Assembly (NCBI RefSeq): GCF_029945925.1
Contig: NZ_JAQSDN010000061.1
Span: forward strand, 62,001 to 126,000
DNA from: Polaromonas sp.
GTDB taxonomy: Bacteria; Pseudomonadota; Gammaproteobacteria; Burkholderiales; Burkholderiaceae_C
Direction: 5' to 3'
DNA: 64,000 bases
In this document: positions 7,090 through 62,395 of the stretch, piece by piece
Position numbering within the stretch: the stretch's first letter is position 1
Layout of the letters: each line of letters opens with the position of its first letter
The notes under the pieces: generated by a model
Told to the model about the DNA's origin: nothing
What the model saw: the letters and a program-made list of their open reading frames with translations, nothing else
Databases searched by the model: none
Made by a program: the position numbers and the translations under genes

Positions 7090-7142
7090 AATATGCCTCC
7101 AGCCCTTATCTGGCGGGCGCAAGCAGCTATCAAACCTGTAGC
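7090..7142 (-). repeat. 57-bp dispersed repeat, copy 1 (supplies a stop codon)
   Basis: Read on the reverse strand it starts GCTACAGGTTTGATAGCTGC, continues TTGCGCCCGCC and ends AAGGGCTGGAGGC. It overlaps the last codons of the Gfo/Idh gene; the TGA inside GTTTGATAGC is that gene's stop codon. Confidence 0.8.
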
Positions 7143-8293
7143 GTCGGAACATCCACCCAACGGCGTTCCTTCCAGCTTTCGAGAGCGGCTTCAACCAGCT
7201 GCACGCCCTTGGCGCCTTCGGGCAAGGTCCATTTGTAGGGCTCGTTTTCCACCACGTGGCGGATGAAATGCTCCCACTGGATCTTGAAGCCGTTGTCGTA
7301 GACCTGCGAGTCCGGGATCTCCTGCCACTGGTCCATGAAGTTCATGGTCTGCTTCTCGTCGGGGTTCCAGACCGGGCGCGGCGTGGCCACGCGCGACTGG
7401 GCGCGGCAGGAGGACAGGCCGGCAACGGCCGAGCCGTGGGTGCCGTCCACGTGGAAGGTGACCAGGTCGTCGCGGCGCACGCGGGTGGCCCAGGACATGT
7501 TCATCTGCGCAATCACCGGCTCGCCGTTGTGGCCGATCAGCTCGGCCGTGGCGTAGGCCGCGTCGTCGGCCGTCGCCTTGTAGGGTTTGCCGGCTTCGTC
7601 CCAGCGCTCGGGGATGTGGGTTGCGCCTATGCAGGAGATCGACTTGACCTCGCCGAACAGGTTGTCCAGCACGTAGCGCCAGTGGCACATCATGTCCAGG
7701 ATCATGCCGCCGCCGTCTTCGGTGCGGTAGTTCCAGCTCGGGCGCTGGATGGGCTGCAGGTCGCCTTCGAAGACCCAGTAGCCGAACTCCAGTCGCACCG
7801 ACAGCATCTTGCCGAAGAAGCCGGCGCGGCGCAGCATGTCGAGCTTGCGCAGGCCGGGCAGGAAAAGCTTGTCCTGCACCGCGCCGTGTTTCAGGCCCGA
7901 GCTTTCGGCCAGGCGCGCAATCTCGACGGCTTCGTTGAGGTTGGTGGCAATCGGTTTTTCGCAGTACACATGTTTGCCGGCGCGTATCGCCTTGGCCAGC
8001 AACGTGGGGCGCATCTGCGTGGTGCCGGCGTCAAAGAAGATCGTGTCGTCCTTGTTTTTCAGCGCTTCATCGAGGTCGGTGCCCCAGCGTTCGATGTTCC
8101 AGGTTTTGGCCAGGGCTTCGATTTTTTCGGCATTGCGGCCGATCAGGATCGGGTCCGGCATCACCTTGTCGCCATTGGAGAGCAGCACGCCGCCCTGCTT
8201 GCGGATCGCGACGATGGAGCGGATCAGATGCTGGTTCATGCCCATGCGTCCGGTGACGCCGTGCATGATGAGTCCTAGTCGTTGGGTGGCCAT
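7130..8293 (-). CDS. Gfo/Idh/MocA-family NAD(P)-dependent dehydrogenase
   Basis: The 387-residue protein has an N-terminal Rossmann region (GLIMHGVTGRMG) and the family hallmark CEKPIATNL at residues 111-119, where the EKP Lys is catalytic. The C-terminal half holds the open beta-sheet substrate domain, with GGGMILDMMCHW corresponding to the conserved Asp/His region. These enzymes oxidise or reduce sugars and inositols. The last codons lie in a dispersed repeat that provides the stop, so the original C-terminus may have been altered. It lies 109 bp downstream of a Bug receptor, suggesting that the receptor delivers its substrate or a precursor. Confidence 0.85.
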   Translation of the reverse strand: MATQRLGLIMHGVTGRMGMNQHLIRSIVAIRKQGGVLLSNGDKVMPDPILIGRNAEKIEALAKTWNIERWGTDLDEALKNKDDTIFFDAGTTQMRPTLLAKAIRAGKHVYCEKPIATNLNEAVEIARLAESSGLKHGAVQDKLFLPGLRKLDMLRRAGFFGKMLSVRLEFGYWVFEGDLQPIQRPSWNYRTEDGGGMILDMMCHWRYVLDNLFGEVKSISCIGATHIPERWDEAGKPYKATADDAAYATAELIGHNGEPVIAQMNMSWATRVRRDDLVTFHVDGTHGSAVAGLSSCRAQSRVATPRPVWNPDEKQTMNFMDQWQEIPDSQVYDNGFKIQWEHFIRHVVENEPYKWTLPEGAKGVQLVEAALESWKERRWVDVPTLQV

Positions 8294-8402
8294 GGGGGTC
8301 CTTGTGGTGGCGGTAAAAATGCGGCGGCCGCACCCTGGGTCCGGCGCGGTATCAGGGCAGGTCCGGATCCAGGCCGGGCGCGGCAGTCGCGGGGGTTAAG
8401 AC

Positions 8403-9392
8403 TTACTGGGCCGGGGAGAGGCCGGCGGCCTTGACCAGCACGGCGTTGGTCTTGATTTCATCGCGGAGGTAGGCGTCGAACTGCTCGGGCTTCATGGTCC
8501 AGGCTTCGGCGCCCAGCGCGGCAAAACGCTCCTTGACTTCAGGCGTGGCCAGGGCCTTGACGACTTCGTCGTGCAGGCGGTTGACGATGTCGCGCGGTGT
8601 CTTGCTTGGGGCCATCATGCCGATCCAGAAGTTGAACTCGGAACCGGGAACGCCGGCCTCGGCGGTGGTCGGCACCTGGGGCAGGGCGCTGGCGCGTTTG
8701 GGCGAACCGACTGCCAGTGCCACCAGCTGGCCGTTGCGGATCTGGCCGATCACCGGCGCGATCGGCGAGAAGTAGTAGTCCACCCGGCCGGACATGACTT
8801 CGGTCACGGCTTCTCCTGAGCCTTTGAACGGGATGTTGGTGGCTTCGATTTTGGCCGCGAGCTTGAATTTTTCGGCGTTCAGGTGGGTGGCGCTGCCCTG
8901 TCCGGCCGAGGCGAAGTTCATGCTGCCGGGTTTGGCGCGGGCGGCGGCCAGCAGTTCCTGCAGCGTCTTGATGTTTTTGGATGGCGACATGACCAACACG
9001 TTGGGGGTGCTGGAAATCGGCGTCACGCCGGCGAAGTCGCCCAAGGTGTCGAAGGGCAGCTTCGCAAAAGTGGAGGGGCTGACCGTGTGCGAGGACGAAT
9101 GGACCATGATGGTGTAGCCGTCCGGTGCGGCCTGGGCCACCGCCGCCTGACCTATCGTCCCGCTGGCGCCGCCGCGGTTGTCGATCACCAGGGTCTGGCC
9201 CATGCTCTGTCCCATCTTGTCGGCAATGGCGCGGGCAATGATGTCGGTCGTGCTGCCGGCGGCAAAGGGCACGATCACACGGATCGGCTTGTTCGGGTAG
9301 GCGCCCTGGGCGCTGGCGGCCAGCGGCGAAAGCGCGGCCAGCACGGTGAGGGAAGTGAGCGAAGCCAGGGCGGCGCGGCGTGCAAAGGTCAT
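8403..9392 (-). CDS. Bug-family periplasmic solute receptor (tripartite tricarboxylate transport type)
   Basis: A 329-residue secreted protein: signal peptide to about residue 28 (LAASAQG), then YPNKPIRVIVPFAAGSTTDIIARAIA, the opening beta strand and ligand loop of Bug receptors, and VIDNRGGASGTIGQAAVA. Bug proteins capture carboxylates or other small molecules in the periplasm; many have no dedicated TctAB partner nearby, and none is seen here. A perfect palindrome (9459-9484) lies 67 bp upstream of the start and a TetR gene follows, so TetR control is likely. Confidence 0.88.
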   Translation of the reverse strand: MTFARRAALASLTSLTVLAALSPLAASAQGAYPNKPIRVIVPFAAGSTTDIIARAIADKMGQSMGQTLVIDNRGGASGTIGQAAVAQAAPDGYTIMVHSSSHTVSPSTFAKLPFDTLGDFAGVTPISSTPNVLVMSPSKNIKTLQELLAAARAKPGSMNFASAGQGSATHLNAEKFKLAAKIEATNIPFKGSGEAVTEVMSGRVDYYFSPIAPVIGQIRNGQLVALAVGSPKRASALPQVPTTAEAGVPGSEFNFWIGMMAPSKTPRDIVNRLHDEVVKALATPEVKERFAALGAEAWTMKPEQFDAYLRDEIKTNAVLVKAAGLSPAQ

Positions 9393-9458
9393 GGTTGTCT
9401 CCTGAAGGGCATTTGGAAGAAACGGAAGTCCGGCAACACAAGCAGGCCGGAGTTTACG

Positions 9459-9484
9459 CCTAATTCACCATTAAGTGAATTAGG
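9459..9484. promoter_or_regulatory. Perfect palindrome, probable TetR operator
   Basis: Two 10-bp arms, CCTAATTCAC and GTGAATTAGG, are exact reverse complements separated by the 6-bp spacer CATTAA. The site lies between the Bug receptor and the TetR gene. A matching half-site (GTGAATTA, 10209-10216) lies in the TetR promoter region, which supports binding by that regulator. Confidence 0.7.
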
Positions 9485-9527
9485 AATTGTAAAAACAATG
9501 CCGACCGTGCGTCAATGCGGTGTCGCT

Positions 9528-10187
9528 TCAGTTTCTAAGGACATACCCTAGGATCACCTCGCACATGTGCGAGAGGCGCTCATGGCGGGCCTTGGGCGTC
9601 ATCAGGTCGCGCCCGAAAATCGCCGACAGCGTGTGGTTGTTGGAGAGGTAGAAATACGCCATGCCGGCAATCGACACGTAGAGCTGCACCGGGTCGATGC
9701 CGCCGCGGAACAGGCCTTCGGCGCGCCCGCGTTCCAGGATTTCGGCGAGTGTCTCGATCAGCGGCGAGTTGGTTTCCCGGGCCCGGCTGGACATCGCCAG
9801 ATGCCGGCCCTGGTGCAGGTTCTCACTGTTGAGAAGGGTCAGAAACTCCGGGTGTTCGAGGTAATACTCCCAGGTGAATTCGGTGAGCCGCCGGATCGCC
9901 TGGGCCGGCGGCATGTCGCGCAGGTGCAGCTTTGTTTCCGCCTCGCGGATGTGCGCGTAGGCGTGCTCAAGCACCGCCAGAAACAGCTCGTCCTTGCTCT
10001 TGAAGTAGTAGTAGATCAGCCGTTTGTTGATGTCGGCGCGCTCGGCAATGCGGTCCACCCGCGCTCCGCCCAGGCCGTGCTGGGCGAACTCGTCGCGGGC
10101 GGCCAGCAGGATGGCCTGCTGCGAGCGGTCGGCATCGCGCGAGCGGGTTTCGGCAGGTTTTGCTGTTTTGCTTTTGGGGCTTGGCAT
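9528..10187 (-). CDS. TetR-family transcriptional regulator
   Basis: A 219-residue protein with an N-terminal helix-turn-helix at about residues 25-70 (ILLAARDEFAQHG, then IAERADINKRLIYYYFKSKDEL), the classic TetR pattern, and a helical C-terminal ligand domain. ATG 10187 begins a typical Lys/Pro-rich tail. It sits just upstream of the Bug receptor and Gfo/Idh genes on the same strand with a perfect palindrome between, and its own leader carries a similar half-site. It most likely represses both itself and the uptake genes. Confidence 0.87.
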   Translation of the reverse strand: MPSPKSKTAKPAETRSRDADRSQQAILLAARDEFAQHGLGGARVDRIAERADINKRLIYYYFKSKDELFLAVLEHAYAHIREAETKLHLRDMPPAQAIRRLTEFTWEYYLEHPEFLTLLNSENLHQGRHLAMSSRARETNSPLIETLAEILERGRAEGLFRGGIDPVQLYVSIAGMAYFYLSNNHTLSAIFGRDLMTPKARHERLSHMCEVILGYVLRN

Positions 10188-10208
10188 GGCGGATAATTTA
10201 ACTGTTTG

Positions 10209-10216
10209 GTGAATTA
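10209..10216. promoter_or_regulatory. Half-site matching the TetR palindrome
   Basis: GTGAATTA here equals the inner eight bases of one arm of the 9459-9484 palindrome, 22 bp upstream of the TetR start codon. The opposite arm is degenerate, so binding would be weaker; autoregulation is the simplest reading. Confidence 0.45.
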
Positions 10217-10329
10217 AATCAAGATTCGCAGGTGATGGGTGATAGGCTGACACCGCTGCGCCAAGCGTACCTCCATAATGAAGCAGGGACCGGCCAGCCG
10301 CGCCGGTGCCGACATGCAAGGAGATGGTC

Positions 10330-10638: not shown

Positions 10639-10640
10639 CC

Positions 10641-10672
10641 GCAACGCCTCGCCCTTGGGGGCGAGGCGTTGC
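10641..10672. terminator. Perfect 14-bp hairpin downstream of the acidic protein gene
   Basis: GCAACGCCTCGCCC and its exact complement flank a TTGG loop, starting 2 bp after the stop codon. There is no T-run, so it may act as an mRNA 3' stabiliser or a weak terminator. Confidence 0.5.
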
Positions 10673-10699
10673 GCGCAGTGACAAGCGCGCGGGCTCCCC

Positions 10700-10795
10700 T
10701 TCAAGCAGGGGCCGCGGGTCCGGCTCCGCCGGCCCGCAGGCGCAGCGGCCCCCTCGGGGGGCAGCGACCCGCACGAAGTGGGGGAGCGTGGGGGC
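10700..10795. repeat. About 96-bp GC-rich repeat, left copy
   Basis: Begins TTCAAGCAGGGGCCGCGGGT and ends in a GTGGGGG-like tail containing CCCCTCGGGGGGCAG. A nearly identical copy lies at 12565-12660 in the same direction, so the two bracket the ThDP enzyme gene. Confidence 0.85.
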
Positions 10796-10806
10796 ACAAT
10801 AGTCAG

Positions 10807-12504: not shown

Positions 12505-12564
12505 CGCCGGCAGGTCGAGCTCGGGACGACCGGAGGTCAGTGAGCGACCGCAAGGGCATCTCTA

Positions 12565-12660
12565 TTCAAGCAGGGGCCGCGGGTCCGGCTTTGCCGGCCC
12601 GCAGGCGCAGCGCCCCCTCGGGGGGCAGGGCGCTACGCGAAGCGAGCGAACGTGGGGGCT
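12565..12660. repeat. About 96-bp GC-rich repeat, right copy
   Basis: Same orientation and nearly the same sequence as 10700-10795 over the first 70 bp, diverging slightly after GGGGGGCAG. It lies just after the ThDP gene. Confidence 0.85.
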
Positions 12661-12748: not shown

Positions 12749-13210
12749 TTACTTGACGTGCTTGCCGATCAGGCCAGCCATCTCGAACATCGACACTTGC
12801 GCCTTGCCGAAAACGGCACGCAATTTTTCGTCGGCGTTGACCATGCGCTTGTTGACCTTGTCCTGCAGACCCTTGGCCTTGATGTAGACCCAGAGCTTGC
12901 GCACGATCTCGGTGCGGGGCAGCGCAGCAGCGCCAACCACGGCCGACAAGGCGGGGCTCAGTGTCAGTGGCTTCATGAACGCTGCGTTGGGCGTACGCTT
13001 TTTGGCGGGCGCTTTTTTTGCAGGCGCTTTTTTCGCCACTACTTTTTTTGCAGGAGCCGCTTTCTTTGCTGCTACCTTTTTAGCCGGCGCTGCTTTTTTC
13101 GCAGGAGCCGCCTTCTTCGCAGGAGCTGCTTTTTTCGCAGCTACTTTTTTTGCCGGTGCAGCCTTTTTAGCGGGCGCTTTTTTTGCCGGTGCTTTTTTTG
13201 CAGTTGCCAT
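12749..13210 (-). CDS. SWIB/MDM2-domain protein with histone H1-like Lys/Ala repeats
   Basis: The 153-residue protein has two parts. Residues 1-72 are repeats of AAPAKK/VAAKK/APAKK type, strongly basic and like the tails of bacterial histone H1-like (HC1/HU tail) proteins. Residues 80-153 match a SWIB domain (KPLTLSPALSAVVG, then LWVYIKAKGLQDK and MFEMAGLIGKHVK). In bacteria such proteins are thought to bind nucleic acid and affect chromosome packing. A good ribosome site (AGAAGGA) precedes ATG 13210. The repeat tract is prone to length change between strains. Confidence 0.85.
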   Translation of the reverse strand: MATAKKAPAKKAPAKKAAPAKKVAAKKAAPAKKAAPAKKAAPAKKVAAKKAAPAKKVVAKKAPAKKAPAKKRTPNAAFMKPLTLSPALSAVVGAAALPRTEIVRKLWVYIKAKGLQDKVNKRMVNADEKLRAVFGKAQVSMFEMAGLIGKHVK

Positions 13211-13611
13211 GATTGATTTTCCTTCTAGAAGTTGATAAATCACCAATGCAGATAACTACTCTTCACTGGCAAGGGGGATGCTACTGGAGAAAACAGTGGT
13301 TTCATAGGGAAAACGCAATTTTTTTGGGTCTGGATGTTGCAGATTTACTTCGACAGGATCGAAAACGCTGCACCCGGGGCAACGCAGCGTGCGCGCAAGG
13401 TCGCGTTGCGGCGGATGTCAGAGGCGACAAAGCAGTCGGCAAAGGCTGCGCCGCAGGCAGCGGCACGTGCTCACCCAGCACCGGAGGAAGCCGGCTTAAC
13501 ACCGCGCCAGCACACGGCATTTGCCCCGTAAGGTCCCCGGCTGCACGGTATGCTTGCGCAGTTTTCCTTCCGCATGTTCGCCGCAGCCCGCCCCCTGAAA
13601 GGACACCGCCC
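13211..13611. other. Intergenic region without a recognised gene
   Basis: This 401-bp gap separates the divergent SWIB and RraA-like genes. It holds their leaders, including AGAAGGA before the SWIB start and AAAGGA before the RraA start. A 65-codon frame at 13334-13531 lacks a ribosome site and family resemblance, so I do not call it a gene. Confidence 0.5.
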
Positions 13612-18152: not shown

Positions 18153-18202
18153 GGCAGCGCCAATTGTAGGGTTTGCACAGTTTTGGCGCGTAGAATCTTG
18201 CC

Positions 18203-18465
18203 TGTTGGTGCTCGCGGTGTGGTTCACACGCTGCAGTTCAACGGGAAGCAGGAGTGAATCAAGACCATCCGCACCGGGTCAGCCCGGGCCGATTGCGCCT
18301 GGATTTTTAACCTGCGCTGCCCCCGCAACGGTAAACGGACGAATTTCGCTCCCCTGACTCAGACTCGGGGCACATTCAGCTTTCATCATCAGCCACTGAG
18401 CGTTCTGAACACGCGCTTGGGAAGGCGATGAGAGCAGTTCCGTCAGCCCGGATACCGGCCAACAA
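18203..18465 (+). ncRNA. Cobalamin (AdoCbl) riboswitch
   Basis: The leader of btuB carries the conserved parts of the B12 riboswitch in order: GTTGGTG near 18205, ACGGGAAGCAGGAGTGAATC (18241-18260), the B12 box GCTGCCCCCGCAACGGTAA (18316-18334), a CACTGAG segment, and GATACCGGCCAACA at the end. A TAGAAT -10-like box at 18191-18196 may mark the promoter. It should shut off the B12 genes below when adenosylcobalamin is plentiful. The region after it (to 18548) probably holds the ribosome-site sequestering hairpin. Confidence 0.93.
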
Positions 18466-18548
18466 GGTGAACGCGCGCGTCTTTTTCTGGACCGGGCGTT
18501 TGTAACGCTCATGCACTGGCGGGGAAGCTGGTGAGGGCCTTTTGTTGA

Positions 18549-24054: not shown

Positions 24055-25070
24055 GCCCGGGTTTTTCCAACCAGCACCGCCAGGCCCTGCTGCTGGCCGG
24101 CGGCCTGCTGCTGGCCAGCGCGGCCCTGCTGCTGCTGGGCGTCAGTGTGGGCAGCACCGGTGTCGAGAGTGTGCGCAGCATGTGGCATGACGCGCAGGCC
24201 CTGCAGATCGTCCGCGAGATCCGCTTGCCGCGCACGGTGGGCGCCTGGCTGGCCGGTGCCTTGCTGGGCCTGGCCGGCGCGGTGGCGCAAGGCCTGTTTC
24301 GCAACCCGCTGGCCGACCCCTACCTGCTGGGCAGCGCCTCGGGCGCTTCGCTGGGGGTGGCCCTCGCCATGGCGCTGTTCGGTGTGTCGCCGCTGGCCAT
24401 GCACTGGCTGGCGCGCATCGGGCTCACTGGCGCGGCCTTTGTCGGCGCCGTGCTGGCCGTGCTGCTGACCCTGCTGCTGGCCAAGGGCGTGCAGCACACG
24501 CTGCGCCTGCTGCTGGCCGGCGTGATTGTCGGGGTGGTGCTGGGCGCCTTCACCTCGTTGATTTTGCTGCTCACGCCCGAGATCATGCAGGCCATGCAGT
24601 CCTTCATGCTGGGCAGCACAGGTTTTGTCGGCTGGACTGCCTGCGCCGTGATGGCGGCGGTGCTCGCCTTCAGCGTGCTGGCCGCCTGGATGATGAGCCA
24701 TGTGCTCGACGGCCTGGCGCTGGGCGAAGCCACCGCGCAAAGCCTGGGCCTGCGCCTGCCGCAGATGCGGGTGGCGCTGGTGGCGGTGCTGGCGCTCGCC
24801 ACCGGCACCGCCGTGGCGCAGACCGGGCTGATTGCGTTTGTGGGCCTGGCCGCGCCGCATCTGGTGCGCTCCGTCGTCAAGACCACCCACGGCCGCCTGA
24901 CCGTGCTGGCCGCCCTGATGGGTGCGGTGCTGCTCACGGCCGCCGACATTCTGGCGCGCTGGCTGGTGGCGCCGCAGGAGTTGCCGGTGGGCGTGCTGAC
25001 GGCGGTGCTGGGCGGCGGCTACCTGCTCTGGCTGATGCACCGGCATACCGGAAGAGGGGCGGGGTTGTGA
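24051..25070 (+). CDS. btuC: Cobalamin ABC transporter permease (FecCD family)
   Basis: A 339-residue membrane protein with about ten helices. Family landmarks are REIRLPRTVGAWLAGALLGLAGAVAQGLFRNPLADPYLLG, and GLIAFVGLAAPHLVR near the end, the cytoplasmic loop that touches the ATPase. It forms the channel of the BtuCDF importer. The start overlaps the btuF stop by 4 bp and its stop overlaps the next start. Confidence 0.93.
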   Translation: MSPGFSNQHRQALLLAGGLLLASAALLLLGVSVGSTGVESVRSMWHDAQALQIVREIRLPRTVGAWLAGALLGLAGAVAQGLFRNPLADPYLLGSASGASLGVALAMALFGVSPLAMHWLARIGLTGAAFVGAVLAVLLTLLLAKGVQHTLRLLLAGVIVGVVLGAFTSLILLLTPEIMQAMQSFMLGSTGFVGWTACAVMAAVLAFSVLAAWMMSHVLDGLALGEATAQSLGLRLPQMRVALVAVLALATGTAVAQTGLIAFVGLAAPHLVRSVVKTTHGRLTVLAALMGAVLLTAADILARWLVAPQELPVGVLTAVLGGGYLLWLMHRHTGRGAGL

Positions 25071-25861
25071 TGCCAAACACCGCTTCAGTTGCTATGGATT
25101 CAGTAGCTATTGACGCCCGCTGCATCAGGGCCAGTCTCGGAAATGTCGAGGTATTGCACGGCATGTCCCTGGTGCTGCCGGCCGCGCGCTGGACCAGCAT
25201 CGTCGGCCCCAACGGCGCCGGCAAGTCCACCCTGCTCAAGGTGCTGGCGGGCCTGCTGCCGCATCACGGCGAGGTGGCCTTGCTGGGCCAGCCGCTGGCC
25301 AGCCTGCGCGGGCGCCAGCGTGCGCAGCAGCTGTCCTGGCTGGGCCAGAACGAAAGTTCGGCCGACGACCTGACGGTTTACGACGTGGCCATGCTGGGCC
25401 GCCTGCCGCACCAGGCCTGGCTGGCGCCGCCCAGCGCCGCCGACCATGCCGCCGTCGAACGCGCCCTGCGTGCCACGCAGGCCTGGGACTGGCGCGCCCG
25501 CGCCCTCGGCCAGCTCTCGGGTGGCGAGCGCCAGCGCGTGTTGCTCGCGCGTGCGCTGGCGGTGGAGGCCCAGGTGCTGCTGATGGACGAACCGCTGGCC
25601 AACCTCGATCCGCCGCACCAGACCGACTGGCTGCTGATGGTGCGCGCCCTGGTGGCCGAGGGGAAAACCGTGGTCAGTGTGCTGCATGAAATCTCGTTTG
25701 CACTGCAGGCCGATGAGCTGGTGCTCATGGACCAGGGCCGCATCGTTCACCAGGGGGCCTGCGGCGACGCGGCCACGCATCGCGCGCTGGAAGCCGTGTT
25801 TGACCACCGCATCGCGGTGCACCCGCTGGCCGGCCAGTGGCTGGCCGTGCCCAGGATTTAG
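25070..25861 (+). CDS. btuD: Cobalamin ABC transporter ATP-binding protein
   Basis: A 263-residue ABC ATPase: Walker A GPNGAGKST at residues 46-54, signature LSGGERQRV, Walker B VLLMDEPLANLD and a switch His in SVLHEISFA. It drives the btuC/btuF importer. ATG 25070 directly overlaps the permease stop; a GTG three bases earlier is possible. Residues 8-24, in the first strand, come from a dispersed repeat, yet the catalytic motifs are untouched. Confidence 0.92.
   Translation: MPNTASVAMDSVAIDARCIRASLGNVEVLHGMSLVLPAARWTSIVGPNGAGKSTLLKVLAGLLPHHGEVALLGQPLASLRGRQRAQQLSWLGQNESSADDLTVYDVAMLGRLPHQAWLAPPSAADHAAVERALRATQAWDWRARALGQLSGGERQRVLLARALAVEAQVLLMDEPLANLDPPHQTDWLLMVRALVAEGKTVVSVLHEISFALQADELVLMDQGRIVHQGACGDAATHRALEAVFDHRIAVHPLAGQWLAVPRI
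25091..25140 (+). repeat. 57-bp dispersed repeat, copy 4 (start of btuD)
   Basis: GCTATGGATTCAGTAGCTAT, then GACGCCCGCTGCATCAGGGCCAG follows the family order of motifs with more mismatches than other copies. It encodes the N-terminal residues 8-24 of the ATPase. Confidence 0.6.
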
Positions 25862-29294: not shown

Positions 29295-30868
29295 CCGGCA
29301 AAAGCGTGATGGTTCTGGGCACCACCAGCGGCGCCGGCAAAAGCTGGCTGACCACCGCGCTGTGCCGCTACTACGCCAACCAGGGCCTCAAGGTCGCGCC
29401 CTTCAAGGCGCAGAACATGAGCAACAACGCCAGGGTGGTGGCAGGGCGAGAATTTTCCGCCGGGCCGCCCCAAGGAAAATTAGCCCCTCTCCCCGGTGAA
29501 AGGGGCAGCGAGTCGCCGGAGGCTCACGCAGTGACAAGCGTGGGGGGCGAGATAGGCAGCGCCCAATATTTTCAATCGCTGGCGGCAAAAGCTGTACCTG
29601 AAGTCCGCATGAATCCGCTGCTGCTCAAGCCCGAGAAAGACACGCACAGCCAGGTGATCCTGATGGGCCAGGTCAACGCCGAGCTTTCACGCATGGCCTG
29701 GCGCGGCCGCAGTGCCTCGGTCTGGCCGGTGATAACGCAGGCCCTCGACGAACTGCTGGAAGAAAACGACGTCGTCGTGATCGAAGGCGCGGGTTCGCCG
29801 GCCGAGATCAACCTCAAGGCCAGCGACATCGTCAACATGCGGATCGCGCAACACGCGAACGCGGCCTGCCTGCTGGTCACCGACATTGACCGCGGCGGCG
29901 CCTTTGCGCACCTCTATGGCACCTGGGCCATGCTCGACGAGTCGGAACGCCGGTTGATCAGGGGGTTCGTGCTCAACAAGTTCCGCGGCGACGCCAGCCT
30001 GCTCGCCCCCGGCCCGCAGATGCTGCAGGACCTGACCGGTGTGCCCACGGTGGCGACCTTGCCGATGTGGTGGCAACACGGGCTGCCCGAAGAGGATGGT
30101 TTTTTTCACCCTCTCCCCCTGGGAGAGGGCAGGGGTGAGGGCTCCCCGGGCGCACGGTCCCTGACCATCGCCGTCGTCGCTTACCCACGCATCAGCAACC
30201 TCGACGAATTCCAGCCGCTCAAGAATGTGCCGGGCATTCACCTGAAGTGGGTGCGCAGCCCGGGCGAGCTGGCTGGTCTCGCGGCTTCCGACTGGATCAT
30301 CCTGCCCGGCTCCAAACACACGAGCGGCGACCTGGCCTGGCTGCGCACGCAGGGACTGGACAGCGCGATTGCCGCGCATGCCGGCCGCGGCGGGGCGGTG
30401 CTCGGCATTTGCGGCGGGCTGCAGATGCTGGGCGAAGCACTGATCGATCCGTACGGCATCGACGGCAACGGGCCGGGCCTGGGCTTGCTGCCGGTGGTCA
30501 CGCTGTTTGAAGCCGACAAGACCGTGCGGCACCGGCAGGCGCGTTTTGCATCGGTCGGTGGTCCGTGGGCGGCCTTGTCCGGTGTGGAGGTGCAGGGCTA
30601 CGAAATCCACCACGGCCAGACCGCGCCGCACAGCGCCATGGCCGCGGCCGGCGATGGGGCGCACGCCGTGCTGCCCGGCGGGCTGGCCTGGCAAAACGGC
30701 AGCGGTAATGTGTTGGGCGTCTACCTGCACGGACTGTTTGAAGACCCGGCCGTGTTGCACGCGCTGTTCGGGGCCAGCACGCCGACGCTGGAGTCGGTGT
30801 TTGAAGGTCTGGCCGACTACATCACGCAGCATTTCCAGCCCGGGGTGCTGGATGCGCTGATTGGCTGA
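29291..30868 (+). CDS. cobQ: Cobyric acid synthase
   Basis: A 525-residue glutamine amidotransferase that amidates four carboxylates of adenosylcobyrinate a,c-diamide. P-loop GTTSGAGKSWL (residues 9-19), KAQNMSNNARVV, the VIEGAGSPAEINL block, and the glutaminase Cys374 (LGICGGLQMLG). The family is usually about 480-510 residues; the excess is explained by two repeat insertions, near residues 53-86 and residues 273-284 (HPLPLGEGRGEG), both in-frame. Overlaps cobD by 4 bp and ends the B12 operon. Confidence 0.92.
   Translation: MTGKSVMVLGTTSGAGKSWLTTALCRYYANQGLKVAPFKAQNMSNNARVVAGREFSAGPPQGKLAPLPGERGSESPEAHAVTSVGGEIGSAQYFQSLAAKAVPEVRMNPLLLKPEKDTHSQVILMGQVNAELSRMAWRGRSASVWPVITQALDELLEENDVVVIEGAGSPAEINLKASDIVNMRIAQHANAACLLVTDIDRGGAFAHLYGTWAMLDESERRLIRGFVLNKFRGDASLLAPGPQMLQDLTGVPTVATLPMWWQHGLPEEDGFFHPLPLGEGRGEGSPGARSLTIAVVAYPRISNLDEFQPLKNVPGIHLKWVRSPGELAGLAASDWIILPGSKHTSGDLAWLRTQGLDSAIAAHAGRGGAVLGICGGLQMLGEALIDPYGIDGNGPGLGLLPVVTLFEADKTVRHRQARFASVGGPWAALSGVEVQGYEIHHGQTAPHSAMAAAGDGAHAVLPGGLAWQNGSGNVLGVYLHGLFEDPAVLHALFGASTPTLESVFEGLADYITQHFQPGVLDALIG
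29448..29547. repeat. Repeat-derived insertion in cobQ (first)
   Basis: About 100 bp containing CCCCTCTCCCCGGTGAAAGG and GCTCACGCAGTGACAAGCGT interrupts the conserved ARVV/GGEIG junction of cobQ without breaking the frame. Its parts resemble the intergenic GC-rich repeats near 10680 (CAGTGACAAGCG). Confidence 0.7.
30107..30141. repeat. GGGAGAGGG hairpin repeat inside cobQ (second)
   Basis: CACCCTCTCCCCCTGGGAG then AGGGCAGGGGTGAGGG, the same unit as at 6954. It is translated as HPLPLGEGRGEG between the two CobQ domains. Confidence 0.85.
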
Positions 30869-43492: not shown

Positions 43493-46400
43493 TCAGGCCC
43501 GCAACTGCTGCGCCATCAACACCGCCACGTGTATGGCTTCGCGCTGCGCGCCATCGCGGATCTGGTGCCGGCAACTGGTGCCGTCGGCCACCACGATGGC
43601 ATCGGGCTGCCGGCGCACGGCGGGCAGCAGGCTCAGTTCGGCCATCTGCATGGACACCTCGTAATGGTTGCTTTCGTAGCCGAAGCTGCCGGCCATGCCG
43701 CAGCAACTGGACTCGATCAGCTCGGGCTTCGCGCCGGGGATCAGCCTGAGCACATCGATGATGGGGCTGACCGCACCAAACGCCTTCTGGTGGCAGTGGC
43801 CATGCAGCAGGATGGCCTGCTCCACCGGCTGCAGTCTGGCTTTGAGCTGGTCGAGCTTGCCGGCTGCGGCCTCGCGCGCCAGAAATTCTTCAAACAGCAG
43901 GGCCTGGTCACTGATGGTTTGAGCCGCTTCACCCAGGCCCATCACCAGCATCTCGTCGCGCATCGTCAGCAGGCAGGACGGTTCCAGCCCGACGATGGCG
44001 ATGCCGCGCTCGGCAAAGGGCAGCAACGCGGCAACCAGCTCCCTGGCCTTGGCCTTCGCTTCATCGACCATGCCGCTGGCCAGGTAGGTCCGGCCGCAGC
44101 ACAGGTGTTTTCCATCTGCTACATTTTTGATAGCTACATGCGCCGTGTATCCGGCGGCTTGCAGTACTTTTAATGCTGAAGCCGCATTGTCCGACTCGAA
44201 GTGGCCATTGAAGGTGTCGACAAACAGCACCACGGGCCTGCTGGCGGCCAGCACCTCCTCGCGCGTGGCGCTCACCGGGGGACGGTTGAAAAAGGTGTGC
44301 CTTTTCCATTGCGGCAAGCTGCGTTTTGCCGAAAAACCGGTGAACTTCTCGCTGAGCGCAGCCAGGCCGGGGATTTTGTCGCGCAGGTTCAGCAGCGGCG
44401 CCAGGCGGCTGGCCCAGTGCGCGTAGTCGGGCAGGTACGCGACCAGCTTGTCTTTCAGCGTGTAGCCATGCTTTGCCTTGTAGTGGTGCAAAAACTCCAC
44501 TTTCATTTTGGCCATGTCCACGCCGGTCGGGCAGTCGCGCTTGCAGCCCTTGCAGCCGACGCAGAGGTCGAGCGCGTCGCGCACGGCTTCGAGCGCGCCC
44601 TCACCCCAGCCCTCTCCCAGAGGGAGAGGGGGAGATTCGGACCGACTCCCTCTCCCTTTGGGAGAGGGTTGGGGTGAGGGTTCCCCTGCACGAGGTGCCT
44701 CCAACTGCCCCGACAGTGCCAGGCGCAAGGTGTTGGCGCGGCCGCGTGTCAGGTGTTGCTCGTCGCGCGTGACGCGGTAGCTGGGGCACATGGTGCCAGC
44801 GTCAAACTTGCGGCAGTGGCCGTTGTTGTTGCACATCTCCACGGCCTTGGCCAGGCCCTGGGCCGGGTCGCCGCCGCTGCCCGGTGCGCTGGTCAGCTCG
44901 GTGACCGGGTCGTTCTGCACGTCCCAGGCGCGCCAGTCGAGCGCGGTCTGGATCGGGATGACCTTGTAGCCCGGTGCGAAACGCATCAGCCGCGTGTCGT
45001 CCATCTTGGGAGGGTTGATCATGCGGCCCGGGCTCAGCAGGTTGATCGGGTCCATGGCCTGCTTGATGGCCGCAAACGCTTCGTTGATCTGCGGGCCGAA
45101 CTGCCACTGGATCCACTCGCCGCGGCACAGTCCGTCGCCGTGTTCGCCACTGTAGGCACCTTTGAACTTGCGTACCAGCTCGGACGCTTCCTCGGCAATC
45201 GCGCGCATCTTGGGCGCGCCCTCGCGCCGCATGTCCAGAATGGGCCGCACATGCAGCGTGCCGACCGAGGCGTGGGCATACCAGGTGCCCTTGCTTCCGT
45301 ATTTGCGGAAGACCTCGGTCAATGCGTCGGTGTATTCGGCCAAGTGCTCCAGCGGCACGGCGCAGTCCTCGATAAAACTCACCGGCTTGCCGTCACCCTT
45401 GAGGCTCATCATGATGTTGAGCCCGGCCTTGCGCACCTCCCACAGGTTTTTCTGCGGGGCGTCGTCCACCATCTCGACGACCGAGTCGGGCAGCAGCAGA
45501 TCGCCCATCAGTTCGCCCAGGCGCTTCAGGTGGGGCAGCAGGTCGGCTTTGCTCGCGCCCGAAAATTCGACCAGCAAAATGGCGGCAGGCTGGCCGATCA
45601 GCGCGCTGCGTATGGTGGGCGCGAAGGCCGGGTTCTGCAGCGACAGGTCAATCATGGTGCGGTCCACCAGCTCGACGGCTGTCAGGCTGCCGTTGCCGAG
45701 TTTGACGATGTGCTGCGCGGCATCCATGGCCCGGTAAAAGGTCGGGAAGTTCACCACGCCCAGCACCTTGGCCCTGGGCAGTTCGCTGAGCTGCAGCGTC
45801 AGTGATTTGGTCAGGGCCAGCGTGCCCTCGCTGCCGATCAGCAGGTGCGCCAGGTTGACCGAGCCGTCGCTCGTGTAGGGGCGCTCGCTCTGCGGGTCGA
45901 AGATGTCCAGGTTGTAGCCGCCCACGCGGCGCATGACCTTGGGCCACATCCGGTTGATGGCCGGGTGCAGCTCCTCGGCCAGCGAGCGAACGTGGTTACC
46001 CAGTTCACGTGCCTTGCCGCTGCTGGCAGCGTAGGGCCCCAGCTGCAGCAACTGGCTGTCCGAAGTCCAGGCCTGCGCGCCCAGCACGTTGTGCACCATG
46101 TTGCCGTAGGCAATGCTGCGGCTGCCGCAGGAGTTGTTGCCGGCCATGCCGCCCAGCGTCGCCTGCGCGCTGGTGGAGACGTCGACCGGGTACCAGAGGC
46201 CGTGCTTTTTCAGCGCGGCGTTCAGGTGGTCCAGCACGATGCCGGGCTCGACCTCGGCGGTCCGCTTGTCCACATCCACATCGATGATGTTGCGTATGTG
46301 TTTCGCATGGTCGATGACCAGCCCGGCGCCCACGGTCTGGCCACACTGGCTGGTGCCGCCGCCGCGCGGAACTATGGGCACGCCCATGTCGCGGCAGATG

Positions 46401-49883: not shown

Positions 49884-49926
49884 ATTCCCTTTCCGCAAGC
49901 CGCGCAACAGCTATCAACAAGGACTA
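49884..49926 (-). repeat. 57-bp dispersed repeat, degenerate copy 7
   Basis: Reverse strand: CTTGTTGATAGCTGTTGCGC, then GGCTTGCGGAAAGGG. It lies immediately before the GTG start of the CaiB gene and contributes the AAGGA ribosome site. Confidence 0.5.
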
Positions 49927-53930: not shown

Positions 53931-53957
53931 GGCTGGAGAAACATCGCCCACCCTTCT

Positions 53958-54046
53958 GTCATTGCGGACTTGATTCGCCATCCATGCCGGCACACCTGCG
54001 TGGGTGGTCAGTAAGGCATGAATCCCGGATCAGGTCCGGGATGACA
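53958..54046. repeat. Hairpin repeats of the CATTGCGGACTTGAT type
   Basis: Two palindromic units between the hydratase and acyl-CoA dehydrogenase genes: CATTGCGGACTTGATTCGCC and AATCCCGGATCAGGTCCGGG. Same family as 5652. Confidence 0.75.
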
Positions 54047-55367: not shown

Positions 55368-55488
55368 CCGCCTTTGCCGCGTGCATTGGAGGTTCACCAG
55401 CAAGCCGGGCTACCCCCGGCTTGTCGGCAAACAACCACCGGCACCTCAATGCCGCGGCCCGGGCGATTCATGTCCGAACGGACGAACT

Positions 55489-56679
55489 ATGAACAAACAA
55501 ACAAGACCCCTCGACGGCATCACCGTCATCTCCCTGGAACACGCCATCGCCGCGCCGTTCTGCACCAGGCAGCTCGCCGACCTGGGCGCACGCGTGATCA
55601 AGGTCGAACGTCCCGGCGTCGGCGACTTTGCGCGGGCTTACGACCAGCGTGTGGACGGCATGGCCTCGCATTTTGTCTGGGTGAACCGCTCCAAGGAAAG
55701 CCTGACGCTGGACTTGAAGCAACCCGGCGCACTGGCCGTGCTCAAACAGCTGCTGGAAACCGCCGACGTGCTGGTGCAAAACCTCGCGCCGGGCGCGGCC
55801 GCGCGCATGGGCCTGGGTTATGACGACCTCCGTGTCGCCAACCCCAAACTGATCGTCTGCGACATTTCGGGTTATGGCGACGACGGCCCCTACCGCGACA
55901 AGAAAGCCTACGACCTGCTGATCCAGAGCGAGGCCGGTTTCCTGTCGGTGACCGGCACGCCTGACGAACCCTGCAAGGCGGGCAACTCGGTGGCCGACAT
56001 TGCCGCCGGCATGTATGCCTACAGCAGCATCCTGGCCGCGCTGCTGCAACGCGGCAAGACCGGCCAGGGCTCGCACATCGACGTGTCCATGCTCGAGTCG
56101 CTGGCCGAGTGGATGGGTTACCCCATGTATTACGCCTACGCCGGTGCCACGCCGCCGCCGCGCAGCGCGGCATCCCACGCGACGATTTATCCCTACGGCC
56201 CGTTTGCGGCTGGTGACGGCGGCACTGTCATGCTCGGGCTGCAGAACGAACGTGAATGGGTGATTTTCTGCAAGGTTGTGTTGCAACAGCCCGGGCTGGC
56301 GACCGATCCGCGTTTTGACAGCAACGCGCGACGCAACGAACACCGCGATGCACTCAAGGCCATCATCCTTGCGGCCTTTGCCGGCATGAGCACCGCCGAG
56401 GTGACCACCCGGCTCGACGAGGCGCAGATTGCCAACGCCCGCATGAACAGCATGGCCGAACTCTGGGCGCATCCGCAGCTCAAGGCGCGTGACCGCTGGC
56501 GCCAGGTGGCGTCGCCGGTCGGCGACCTTCCCGCACTGCTGCCGCCGGGCCGCATCAACAGCTTTGACTACCGCATGGACCCCATCCCTGCAGTCGGCCA
56601 GCACACGCACGCCATCCTGCGGGAACTGGGGCAGGGCGATGACGCCGTTGCCGCGCTGCAGCAGACAAATGCTATTTAA
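55489..56679 (+). CDS. CaiB/BaiF-type CoA-transferase, second copy
   Basis: A 396-residue class III CoA-transferase. LDGITVISLEHAIAAPFCTRQL and VIKVERPGVGDFARAYD open it; catalytic Asp142 lies in KAYDLLIQSEAG. It differs widely from the copy at 49931, so the substrate is probably different; the HAIAAPFCTRQLADLGA start is typical of the mesaconyl/succinyl-CoA transferase group. The stop codon is created by a dispersed repeat (GCTATTTAA). Confidence 0.86.
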   Translation: MNKQTRPLDGITVISLEHAIAAPFCTRQLADLGARVIKVERPGVGDFARAYDQRVDGMASHFVWVNRSKESLTLDLKQPGALAVLKQLLETADVLVQNLAPGAAARMGLGYDDLRVANPKLIVCDISGYGDDGPYRDKKAYDLLIQSEAGFLSVTGTPDEPCKAGNSVADIAAGMYAYSSILAALLQRGKTGQGSHIDVSMLESLAEWMGYPMYYAYAGATPPPRSAASHATIYPYGPFAAGDGGTVMLGLQNEREWVIFCKVVLQQPGLATDPRFDSNARRNEHRDALKAIILAAFAGMSTAEVTTRLDEAQIANARMNSMAELWAHPQLKARDRWRQVASPVGDLPALLPPGRINSFDYRMDPIPAVGQHTHAILRELGQGDDAVAALQQTNAI

Positions 56680-56729
56680 TTGATAGCTGCTTGCGCTTAT
56701 AAATAAAGGGCTGGAGGCGATTTTGTTAT
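56671..56729 (+). repeat. 57-bp dispersed repeat, copy 8 (supplies a stop codon)
   Basis: The best-preserved forward copy: GCTATTTAATTGATAGCTGC, TTGCGCTTATAAATAAAGGG, CTGGAGGCGATTTTG. Its TAA ends the CoA-transferase gene. Confidence 0.85.
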
Positions 56730-56747
56730 CAAAGCCATCCCCGTTTG

Positions 56748-56870
56748 CCATTGCGGGCCCGACCCGCAATCCATGCCCCGGCTGCCCGCGACTGTGGTTC
56801 ATGCGGCATGGATCCCGGGTCACGCCCGGGATGACAAGCCAGGGTCCGGGATGACAGTCAGGATGACAGG
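56748..56870. repeat. Cluster of CATTGCGGGCCCGACCCG-type hairpin repeats
   Basis: Several GGATGACA- or CATTGC-ended palindromes fill the gap before the MmgE/PrpD gene, e.g. ATCCCGGGTCACGCCCGGGA. Same family as 5652. Confidence 0.75.
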
Positions 56871-56912
56871 CCGGGGCCCTTGCCCGATTTTGAAATGATT
56901 TGAGGAAGCACC

Positions 56913-59182: not shown

Positions 59183-59364
59183 GAAGGGTTTGTCCGAATG
59201 TTTTCCGGAGCCGCTCGCCGCAAGATGGGCGCTGTACCTCCAACCGGCGACACGGGGCATTTCCCCAGCGGGAGACCCGACGCGACGCTGCTGCACATCC
59301 CTACCCGGGCATCGGTTTGTACGTATGGAGATCGAGCGCTGACAAGCCTATATTCCCATCCAGA

Positions 59365-59390
59365 CGGATGTTCAATCCGCCCCTTTTTTT
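59365..59390 (+). terminator. Possible weak terminator before dctP
   Basis: CGGAT-GTTCA-ATCCG forms a short 5-bp stem followed by CCCCTTTTTTT, 14 bp before the dctP start. It might trim read-through from the lyase gene. The rest of the 59183-59404 gap shows nothing convincing. Confidence 0.3.
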
Positions 59391-59392
59391 AA

Positions 59393-60415
<1,023 letters not shown>

Positions 60416-60423
60416 CCACAAGG

Positions 60424-60448
60424 AAAGGGCCCGCCTGGCGGGCCCTTT
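60424..60448 (+). terminator. Intra-operon hairpin between dctP and dctQ
   Basis: AAAGGGCCCG and CGGGCCCTTT form a perfect 10-bp stem with a CCTGG loop, 8 bp after the dctP stop, followed only by GT. It could end part of the transcripts or protect the dctP message so more receptor than permease is made. Confidence 0.6.
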
Positions 60449-60456
60449 GTACATTT

Positions 60457-60993
60457 ATGCGTTGGCTAGAACATTTCGAGGAAGGCCTGATCACCTTCCT
60501 GATGGCGGCGATGACCCTGGTCACCTTCATGCAGGTGATTGCGCGTTACGTTTTCAACTACAGCTTTGTCTGGGCGCTGGAACTCACCGGCGTCATGTTT
60601 GCGTGGCTGATTTTTGTGGGCATGTCCTACGGCGTGCGCGTCGGTGCGCATATCGGCGTTGATGCCGCGGTCAAGTCGCTGGGGGCCGGCGCTGCACGCG
60701 TGGTCAGCTCCATCGCCATCGTGCTTTGCATCGCCTATGCGCTCATCGTCGCTTTCGGCAGCTTTCAGTATGTGCACAAGATATACAGCGTTGGCATCCT
60801 GATGCAGGACATTCCGATCCAGACCTGGATACCGCGCATCATCCTGCCGCTGGGTTTTCTGCTGCTCGCCTTCCGCTTTTCCCAGGTGTTGTGGCGGCTG
60901 GCCACCGGCCAGGACGCCCACCTGCTGGGCGACGAAGCCGAGCAAGCCCTCAAGCTCAAGGACGACCCCTCTTTTGGCGAGGTGCGGAAATGA
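60457..60993 (+). CDS. dctQ: TRAP transporter small permease
   Basis: A 178-residue membrane protein with four hydrophobic helices, the DctQ layout: FEEGLITFLMAAMTLVTFMQVIARYVFNYSFVWALELTG is the usual start. It forms the transporter with DctM and is fed by DctP. It overlaps dctM by 4 bp (ATGA). Confidence 0.9.
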   Translation: MRWLEHFEEGLITFLMAAMTLVTFMQVIARYVFNYSFVWALELTGVMFAWLIFVGMSYGVRVGAHIGVDAAVKSLGAGAARVVSSIAIVLCIAYALIVAFGSFQYVHKIYSVGILMQDIPIQTWIPRIILPLGFLLLAFRFSQVLWRLATGQDAHLLGDEAEQALKLKDDPSFGEVRK

Positions 60994-62267
60994 CCATTGC
61001 CGCGCTCTTCATTCTTCTGTTTGCCTTCATGGCGGTGGGCATGCCGGTCGCGGTGGCGCTCGGCCTGTCCTCCATCCTGACCATCCTGCTGTTTGCACAG
61101 GACTCGCTGGCCTCGCTGACGCTCAAGCTGTTCGAGACTTCCGAGCTGTACACCCTGCTGGCCATTCCGTTTTTCATTCTCGGCGGCAACTTCATGACGA
61201 CGGGTGGTGTGGCGCGCCGCATGATACGGTTCGCCAATGCCTGCATCGGGCACTTTCGTGGTGGCCTGGCCATGGCGTCGGTGCTGGCCTGCATGTTGTT
61301 CGCAGCGGTGTCGGGCTCATCGCCCGCCACGGTCGTGGCGGTGGGTGCCATCGTGATCGCCGGCATGGTCAAGGCCGGCTACCCGCAGAACTTTGCCGCG
61401 GGGGTCATCTGCAACGCCGGCACGCTCGGCATCCTGATCCCGCCCTCCATCGTGATGGTGGTCTACGGCGCCGCCACCGAGACCTCGGTCGGCAAGCTCT
61501 TCATGGCCGGCGTCATACCGGGCATCCTGCTCGGCCTGATGCTCATGCTGGCCATTTACGTGCGTGCCCGCATGCTCGACCTGCCGCGCCAGCCGCGTGC
61601 GCCCCTGGGCGAGATCCTGAAAGCCGGCCGCGACTCGCTCTGGGGCCTGCTGCTGATCGTCATCATCCTGGGCGGCATCTACGGCGGCATCTTCACGCCG
61701 ACCGAAGCCGCGGCGGTGGCCGCGATCTACGCCTTCTTCATTGCCGTGTTCGTCTACCGCGACATCGGCATGAAACAGGTGCCCAAGGTACTGCTGGATT
61801 CCGGCAAGGTCACCATCATGCTGATGTTCATCGTGGCCAATGCACTGCTGTTTGCGCATGTGCTGACGACCGAACGCATTCCGCAGACCATTGCCGAAAC
61901 CATCATCGGCTGGGGCATGCCGGCCTGGCAGTTCCTCGTGGTGGTCAACATCCTGTTGCTGATCGCCGGCATGTTCATGGAGCCGACCGGCATCATCCTG
62001 ATCATGGCGCCCATCCTGTTTCCCATTGCCACGCGGCTGGGCATAGACCCTGTTCACCTGGGCATCATCATGGTGGTGAACCTGGAGATAGGCATGGTGA
62101 CGCCGCCCATAGGGTTGAACCTGTTTGTCACCGCGGGCATCACCAAGATGTCCATCCTCGGTGTGGCGCGCGCGGCCCTGCCGTGGACGCTGGTGCTGTT
62201 GCTGTTCCTGATGATCATCACCTACGTGCCGGCCATCACCATGTTCCTGCCCAACATGCTGTTCTGA
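60990..62267 (+). CDS. dctM: TRAP transporter large permease
   Basis: A 425-residue protein with about twelve helices. FAAVSGSSPATVVAVGAIVIAGMVKAGY and GTLGILIPPSIVMVVYG are the first family blocks, and MEPTGIILIMAPILFP, MVTPPIGLNLFV the second. It carries out sodium-driven uptake. It ends the long rightward run and is followed by a strong terminator. Confidence 0.94.
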   Translation: MTIAALFILLFAFMAVGMPVAVALGLSSILTILLFAQDSLASLTLKLFETSELYTLLAIPFFILGGNFMTTGGVARRMIRFANACIGHFRGGLAMASVLACMLFAAVSGSSPATVVAVGAIVIAGMVKAGYPQNFAAGVICNAGTLGILIPPSIVMVVYGAATETSVGKLFMAGVIPGILLGLMLMLAIYVRARMLDLPRQPRAPLGEILKAGRDSLWGLLLIVIILGGIYGGIFTPTEAAAVAAIYAFFIAVFVYRDIGMKQVPKVLLDSGKVTIMLMFIVANALLFAHVLTTERIPQTIAETIIGWGMPAWQFLVVVNILLLIAGMFMEPTGIILIMAPILFPIATRLGIDPVHLGIIMVVNLEIGMVTPPIGLNLFVTAGITKMSILGVARAALPWTLVLLLFLMIITYVPAITMFLPNMLF

Positions 62268-62298
62268 GCCGCGCCGGACCTGCCGGCGAACCGATGAG

Positions 62299-62323
62299 CG
62301 CCGCCCCCATGGGCGGCGTTTTT
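62299..62323 (+). terminator. Rho-independent terminator after dctM
   Basis: CGCCGCCC-CCAT-GGGCGGCG followed by five T, 31 bp after the dctM stop. An unambiguous end of the TRAP operon. Confidence 0.88.
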
Positions 62324-62336
62324 CGTGGAGGCTTGA

Positions 62337-62395
62337 TATAAAATCGGCCTCCAGCCCAGGCGGGATAAGCGCAGGCAGCTATAAAAACAGTAGTA
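62337..62395 (-). repeat. 57-bp dispersed repeat, copy 9
   Basis: Reverse strand: TACTACTGTTTTTATAGCTG, CCTGCGCTTATCCCGCCTGG, GCTGGAGGCCGATTTTATAT. Intergenic, close to the family consensus. Confidence 0.8.

Follow-up and report, generated by a model that had tools for sequence, protein, structure and literature searches.

A dispersed motif of about 65 bp recurs in a 64,000-nucleotide stretch of a Polaromonas genome (the window; positions 62001-126000 of contig C61) and throughout the rest of that genome (G000, a 4.78-Mb draft in 71 contigs), and in several genes compared with their relatives it appears to be spelled mostly in pre-existing sequence. We tentatively favor the view that it is a double-strand chromosomal signal that is read in trans and does not transpose, most likely one resembling a DNA-uptake signal.

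A first-pass annotation of the window had described a repeat family sharing the string GCTATNNAANNNNTAGCTGC, and this string is indeed a repeat: it occurs unaltered 40 times in the genome and never in the reversed control. The pattern ATAGCTGCN2GCGCN9AAGGGCTN2AGGC, searched with up to three mismatches, gave 318 matches (175 forward and 143 reverse), again against none in the reversed control. A 72-column profile was built from 80 seeds and used as a first and a second model. The sample searched comprised 862 kb, i.e., the window and 40 further stretches, part of them selected for holding copies; the second-round profile returned 156 matches at E ≤ 0.1 from it versus one from the reversed sequence, and the search that the annotation had proposed also found copies in many genomes of the family. 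Spacing within the motif is fixed, with 153 of the 156 matches ungapped. The consensus, TTGCTATnnAWTTnATAGCTGCyTGCGCccgynnnayAAGGGCTggAGGCcnATTTgac followed by an A-rich 3′ end, shows no visible terminal inverted repeats and carries about 61 bits of information over the 72 columns. Its conserved columns span about 65 to 70 bp in the profile alignment, which replaces the unit length of 57 bp given earlier. Contiguous sequence that was not selected for copies held 35 of them in 224 kb, extrapolating to about 747 per genome. As had been claimed, the copies are AT-richer than their surroundings (GC content 0.498 versus 0.648 in the flanks, lower in the copy in 140 of 141 cases). Coding matches with E values near 1e-3 are weak and may include chance resemblances, such as an AroA-like segment in stretch L039. 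These data indicated that the repeat is real and genome-wide.

Copies within genes were compared with orthologues, the genes being hand-picked from 35 inside copies and not a random draw. In LigA and the FAD oxidase, motif bearers and non-bearers align without a gap, and the same holds for RarA except that three more distant sequences lack 3 residues. Of 35 core letters, LigA matches 22 to 25 in four bearers versus 10 to 18 in five non-bearers, RarA 23 to 27 in four bearers versus 9 to 23 in six non-bearers, and the FAD oxidase 25 to 29 in three bearers versus 12 to 22 in five non-bearers. Overlapping scores come from RarA of two relatives (G003, 21; G010, 23) and the FAD oxidase of one of them (G010, 22), and these sequences look like decayed copies. 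Among the matches listed for the 3′ end of cbiB, Polaromonas, Rhodoferax, Simplicispira metamorpha, and Acidovorax temperans share the copy, its place, and its unusual AT-rich codons; the end is written in GC-rich codons, at near-equal protein length, in Polaromonas CF318, three other Acidovorax, Variovorax, Hydrogenophaga, and Ramlibacter; and cbiB of Polaromonas KJH2, UBA5171, and bin7 gave no profile match, though its codons are partly motif-like. In cobU, five relatives have the copy in a loop where an outgroup has four extra residues, and the P450 gene of stretch L058 aligns without a gap to that of G032, which shows a mere trace of the motif (E = 0.041).

Clear length gain at a copy was seen in DapE (+10 to +15 residues), although not as a clean 66-bp unit. 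Length at the LACC1 copy differs by +9 from G032, +6 from G129, +2 from G003, and not at all from G023 and G013, and at the MetG linker relatives are shorter or longer without a consistent pattern; neither was taken as proof of insertion. Because LigA, RarA, the FAD oxidase, and the cbiB 3′ end align without a motif-sized gap, insertion does not appear to be the general route, and several of the tested genes would mostly spell the motif in pre-existing sequence. The earlier proposal of repeated insertion with selection for readable frames is thus not supported as a general mechanism, DapE being the clear exception. Orthologues without the motif have identical or similar residues at the copy sites of LigA, RarA, the FAD oxidase, and the CbiB C terminus, which partly agrees with what the annotation had named as evidence against insertion, and the insertion borders that it expected from such comparisons are absent from these genes; DapE, by its gain in length, clearly departs from this. 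Bearers and non-bearers are not polarized on a tree, and part of the difference may therefore be loss rather than gain. Two further observations concern these genes. The Polaromonas genome G010, which has zero strict-pattern copies, holds a DapE gene with an apparently decayed in-frame copy (21 of 35 core letters; L264, G010:C22:4700-5400), as expected after loss of a reader. A further copy, close to the cbiB start, is common to four Acidovorax loci (L132, L144, L150, and L163, near 6190; E = 5e-4 to 2e-7).

The age of the copies was assessed on orthologous pairs between the sample and aligned stretches of two sister species (G004, 19 pairs; G026, 5 pairs), with 11 partial alignments excluded. 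All 24 usable pairs, representing 23 copies, retain a profile match, the weakest at E = 0.032, and copies persist in several gaps where the flanks barely align. Change is 2 to 3 times rarer in core columns than in variable ones: mismatches fell on 35 of 510 core versus 50 of 322 low-information positions in intergenic and gene-edge copies (Fisher P = 9e-5) and on 15 of 256 versus 33 of 167 in copies inside genes (Fisher P = 1.6e-5). The G000 copies had been chosen for a good match, and the bias expected from this opposes the constraint result. Judged by this sequence comparison, the copies were shown to be old and constrained.

Species differ in how they spell the motif. The genome taken to be that of Polaromonas naphthalenivorans CJ2 (G024), whose contig C1 gives the pPNAP01 match, has at least 175 copies in a spelling of its own, with GCGCAAAAGGC where G000 has GGGCTGGAGGC (GCGCAAA for GGGCTGG), and other genera often spell AAGCGCT. 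In 400 kb of CJ2 selected around listed copies, 128 ungapped matches were found, 92 of which remained after removal of overlaps that stem from the near-palindromic center of the CJ2 motif. Column 45 is C in 90 of these 92 and G in 93% of the G000 copies. Of 28 CJ2 matches with an alignable context in the G000 sample, 15 lie within 300 bp of a G000 copy and 13 do not. Nine orthologous pairs lie in the same orientation within 60 bp, one of them formed by the window copy at 56668; at column 45, all nine show C on the CJ2 side and G on the G000 side, and at column 48, CJ2 has A opposite T in seven of the nine G000 copies. Since the paired copies are identical at just 30 to 46 of 72 positions, their orthology rests on the flanking genes. 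Because nine orthologous sites in P. naphthalenivorans carry the spelling of that species, the copies thus appear to change in place and together in different species.

We then considered the form in which the motif is read. Folding of the 60 best copies gave z values of −0.5 and −0.4, pairing equaled that expected under independence, no covariation was found within G000, and the column pair 27-49 gave P = 0.21 in 60 copies from another genome (G342). An RNA or single-strand structure was rejected on this weak folding and lack of covariation; the motif is a double-strand DNA signal, not an RNA. Dependence between columns is local only, consisting of TTT or AAA runs and avoided TpA steps. Such steps are avoided at six of seven column pairs, most plainly at columns 58-59 (0 seen versus 19.1 expected) and weakly at 68-69 (7 versus 10.2). 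These A-tract runs suggest recognition of DNA shape. Testing the G000 profile for a dyad gave no significant result (0.42 of shuffles were as good), and a near-palindromic center is found in CJ2 and in the AAGCGCT genera.

Placement was analyzed on genes predicted with our own open reading frame (ORF) and codon-usage predictor (832 genes in the sample; coding fraction, 0.877). The 153 ungapped copies comprise 89 intergenic ones, 35 wholly inside genes, 25 over a 3′ end, and 4 over a start, so that copies inside genes are far rarer than the coding share predicts (binomial P = 2e-75). Gaps between genes hold 104 copies, of which 38 are in convergent, 54 in tandem, and 12 in divergent gaps, against length shares of 0.126, 0.594, and 0.280; the motif is strongly enriched in convergent gaps and depleted in divergent ones. 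Copies lie near neighboring stop codons (median, 19 to 24 bp) and show no orientation bias, with 68 in the same and 62 in the opposite direction at 3′ ends and 30 and 24, respectively, in tandem gaps. Inside genes the frame is constrained: phase 1 is used by 18 of 20 opposite-strand copies and phase 0 by 10 of 15 same-strand copies, and other frames tend to hit stop codons in the motif. Replication-strand polarity showed no clear link to local GC skew (14 plus and 23 minus copies where G exceeds C, 14 plus and 12 minus where C exceeds G, and 78 at weak skew). Such polarity is a possible feature, by eye, of the copies listed for genome G322. Clusters of several same-strand copies, each within a span of hundreds to a few thousand bases, were noticed at L295 ~5942-6397 and G286:C1:3768436-3771522.

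In the family survey, 131 of 399 genomes and 64 of 141 genera had at least one match, where single matches may be due to chance and other dialects are undercounted by the pattern. A first set of relatives had the motif in 22 of 61 genomes, and 24 other families, represented by one genome each, had none. No matches at E ≤ 0.1 were obtained in 240.6 kb of Variovorax, 78.1 kb of Hydrogenophaga, or 44.4 kb of Ramlibacter. Within one genus, copies with at most two mismatches range from 0 to 195, CJ2-like dialects again being undercounted. Plasmid pPNAP01 carries 1 copy in 353 kb versus about 12 expected at the CJ2 genome density (Poisson P = 7e-5), and plasmid 1 of JS666, counted alone, carries 0 in 360 kb. 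In IMG/VR, 52 stretches match the exact pattern; a blastn search of phages and plasmids with a single 67-mer gave no match, the query being judged too insensitive.

A trans-acting reader with changing specificity would be the simplest reading of this evidence, and the DNA-uptake machinery of natural transformation may be that reader. The DNA uptake sequences (DUS) of neisserial species and the uptake signal sequences (USS) of the Pasteurellaceae probably accumulate by biased uptake and recombination. In the same way, fragments bearing the motif would be taken up preferentially, and recombination would keep copying signal-bearing alleles into the population. Copies would accumulate where the sequence tolerates them, at gene ends and in convergent gaps, loops, and free codons, with no function needed at each single site, and they would follow the specificity of the receptor, giving rise to dialects. 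DUS and USS number hundreds to thousands of chromosomal copies, lie in and between genes on both strands, and are scarce in mobile elements. The motif likewise has very many dispersed copies within and between genes on both strands, is depleted on mobile elements as judged from two plasmids only, and has clade dialects that orthologous copies follow; its AT tracts beside the core resemble those of USS. Dialects are also described for the Neisseriaceae DUS in one report (PMC3630211). According to another (PMC4212676), A. temperans, a member of the same family, was transformed only with conspecific DNA, and data on Verminephrobacter (V. eiseniae) suggest selective DNA binding; its authors name DUS as a model and propose no sequence in the part seen. 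We judged uptake to be the likeliest reader because of the dialects, the copies within genes, the near absence from plasmids, the AT tracts beside the core, and these reports of self-DNA preference.

Several points weigh against uptake. About 61 bits over 72 columns is much longer than known uptake signals, whose core is about 9 to 12 bp (some 30 bp for USS with flanks), and the motif, at about 65 bp, is therefore compared with DUS and USS rather than filed as one of them. The draft genome of 71 contigs has no match to ComEC (PF03772). ComEC was matched in 380 of the 399 family genomes, and of the 19 without it, only G000 has at least 20 copies. An assembly gap or a recent loss could explain its lack in a draft, and since ComEC is near universal, its presence elsewhere proves little. 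Competence in Acidovorax does not cleanly track the motif: no transformation was detected in A. defluvii in the same report (PMC4212676), yet this species carries copies too, 2 in 12.9 kb. The 13 of 28 CJ2 matches with no G000 copy within 300 bp and the real length gain in DapE count on the same side. So does the lack of a trend toward inverted pairs at close range, which some uptake signals have (4 of 4 in G000, but 3 inverted and 4 direct in CJ2). Finally, the near-palindromic center in CJ2 and the AAGCGCT genera points to a reader with two-fold symmetry, and a dimer bound to the chromosome would account for this at least as well. Slightly less probable than the uptake-like signal itself is the further reading that self-DNA uptake signals have a third natural family in the Comamonadaceae, exceptionally long at some 65 bp and with genus and species dialects, which would be kept by biased transformation and for which codons would have been rewritten in genes such as ligA, rarA, and cbiB with the frame intact.

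The main rival, a close second, takes the motif as the site of a lineage-specific chromosomal DNA-binding protein (for nucleoid organization, supercoil relief, or traffic control at gene ends), kept by purifying selection site by site and shifted in specificity between lineages. We regard it as a serious but less probable explanation. Constraint with concerted dialects, the spacing fixed in 153 of 156 matches, A-tracts that avoid TpA, and the near-palindromic center in CJ2 and the AAGCGCT genera all agree with it, as do the excess in convergent gaps (38 of 104 copies versus a share of 0.126), the deficit in divergent ones (12 of 104 versus 0.280), and a draft lacking a ComEC match. However, about 750 sites of about 61 bits would be a very large load for such selection; copy numbers of 0 to 195 in one genus (at most two mismatches, with CJ2-like dialects undercounted), many copies inside unrelated genes, and the nonsignificant dyad test on G000 (0.42) also speak against it.

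Transposition and hairpin formation fare worse. An old mobile repeat of the miniature inverted-repeat transposable element (MITE) type, inserted many times, often in frame, and now decaying, could account for the length gain in DapE, the mostly intergenic copies, and the 13 of 28 CJ2 matches lacking a nearby G000 copy, the last of which means that copies come and go between distant congeners. It is nevertheless improbable: discrete insertions with empty sites in relatives are not what was found in LigA, RarA, the FAD oxidase, or the cbiB 3′ end, whose orthologues are gapless, and the 24 of 24 pairs common to sister species, the species spelling at shared sites, the near absence from two native plasmids, the 52 exact-pattern stretches in IMG/VR, and a consensus without visible terminal inverted repeats argue in the same direction. 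We consider it very improbable that the motif is an RNA or single-strand hairpin element, whether of the repetitive extragenic palindrome (REP) type with its REP-associated tyrosine transposase (RAYT), of the attC type, or a transcription terminator. Location at 3′ ends and in convergent gaps and the palindromic center of some dialects would suit such an element, but there is no clear excess folding, no covariation in G000 or at pair 27-49 in the 60 G342 copies (P = 0.21), and no orientation bias. REP/RAYT was rejected in particular on the lack of a conserved hairpin and on the sole Y1 transposase match in G000, which has no copy in its 3.3-kb locus.

Parts of the motif have been reported before. 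A BMC Genomics paper of 2017 (PMC5217627) lists ATAGCT(N)22CAAAAG with 125 copies in P. naphthalenivorans CJ2 and GCTTAT(N)5AAGCG with 114 copies in Acidovorax ebreus as separate "potential novel motifs," with no function given; they are compared solely by closeness to genes, and many copies lie between convergent genes. By our reading, the CJ2 pair fits the CJ2 dialect at columns 19-24 and 47-52 and the A. ebreus pair fits the AAGCGCT dialect; the part seen of that paper gives neither the full motif nor orthology, constraint, or a link between dialects. Word searches, not sequence searches, of open-licence PubMed Central found no paper on the whole motif or its coding copies, and the repeat text in the part seen of a Rhodoferax genome paper concerns CRISPR only (PMC2755013). 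BRE of Bordetella and other betaproteobacteria are dispersed and occur in Polaromonas too; by their description (PMC3110155), they are set apart as about 90 bp long, GC-rich, and often tandem, whereas copies of the motif mostly stand singly and are richer in AT than the sequence around them. Among the known systems, REP and bacterial interspersed mosaic elements with RAYT are similarly abundant at gene 3′ ends and between convergent genes; unlike them, the motif has no hairpin or RAYT link that we found, often lies inside genes, and takes the species spelling at shared sites. Rickettsia palindromic elements share the in-frame repeat-coded peptides and are set apart by description, several of the genes tested here being without insertion.

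Coordinates of the motif copies in the window are given in Table 1. Eight of the nine copies listed by the first-pass annotation match the profile, that at 44113 only weakly, and the site at 49884 has no profile match at E ≤ 10. Other statements made there hold as well: both orientations are in use, a dispersed family is translated in frame inside enzymes (e.g., the P450 and cobU copies), and two genes end on a stop codon supplied by a copy, the Gfo/Idh gene on TGA (7132-7130) and the second CaiB gene on TAA (56677-56679).

Table 1. Profile matches to the dispersed motif in the window
Feature	Position	Strand	Basis
Motif copy, 3′ end of Gfo/Idh gene (7130-8293, −)	7082..7145	−	Profile E = 5.7e-17; Pfam gene name
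Motif copy, in frame near C terminus of cytochrome P450 gene	15915..15980	+	E = 1.8e-12; translation
Motif copy, in frame in cobU, variable-length loop	22889..22955	−	E = 2.4e-10
5′ part of motif copy, over start of btuD-like ABC ATPase ORF (25067-25861)	25086..25132	+	E = 1.3e-4; second model, 7.4e-7
Motif copy over cbiB 3′ end, encoding last ~20 residues	28206..28267	−	E = 3.9e-7; common to several genera
Weak motif copy (5′ half) inside large FAD-oxidase/Fe-S (YdiJ-like) gene	44113..44144	+	E = 0.005
Motif copy at 3′ end of second CaiB gene (55381-56679)	56668..56733	+	E = 3.2e-14
Intergenic motif copy, downstream of + strand ORF ending at 62267	62332..62398	−	E = 1.5e-13

Pfam names the genes concerned Gfo/Idh, CaiB (CoA-transferase III), CobU, ABC ATPase, CobD/CbiB, P450, and FAD-oxidase/Fe-S protein, and the closest named relative of cbiB is in Polaromonas sp. 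AER18D-145 (89%). The sister genome G004 has an orthologous counterpart of the Gfo/Idh copy (L073) and retains the P450 copy (67 of 72 identical), the btuD-like copy (68 of 72), and the FAD-oxidase/Fe-S copy (66 of 72; E = 0.005). The P450 copy directly follows the FGxGxxxCxG heme signature. Orthologous copies of the one in cobU occur in 5 relatives (E = 0.007 to 1.5e-14), and that of the second CaiB copy in P. naphthalenivorans is in the spelling of that species. The btuD copy is intergenic according to the gene-prediction script, yet it is covered by an ORF from the program-made list.

Other features of the window were noted in passing. At gathering thresholds, the sole Rfam match in the window is a cobalamin riboswitch (RF00174; E = 7e-14) at 18190-18477, before the cobalamin gene cluster. 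A second, palindromic repeat family, TGTCATnCCGG..CCGGnATCCATG, forms several copies and clusters (5651-5702, 53957-54046, 56731-56837, and 62794-63158), one of them adjoining the 56668 copy of the motif. Also dispersed is a third repeat, CCCTCTCCC..GGGAGAGGGTTGGGGTGAGGG, present in both orientations at 6952-7062, 23154, 30103-30150, and 44596-44689. Two 61-nt copies with a CCCCCTCGGGGGG stretch, 90% alike, lie about 1.9 kb apart (10700-10795 and 12565-12659), and tandem 15- and 18-nt units at 12983-13216, Lys/Ala-rich on the minus strand, presumably encode a histone-H1-like tail.

Were the motif an uptake signal, it could account for the self-DNA preference reported for Acidovorax temperans and Verminephrobacter, and it would offer a new, easily tested system for the origin of such signals and for dialect change inside a single genus. 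Were it a protein site, it would represent a very large load of one DNA motif on a bacterial chromosome, core genes included. Either way, in-frame repeat peptides need not mean insertion, as coding sequence can bend to a DNA signal.

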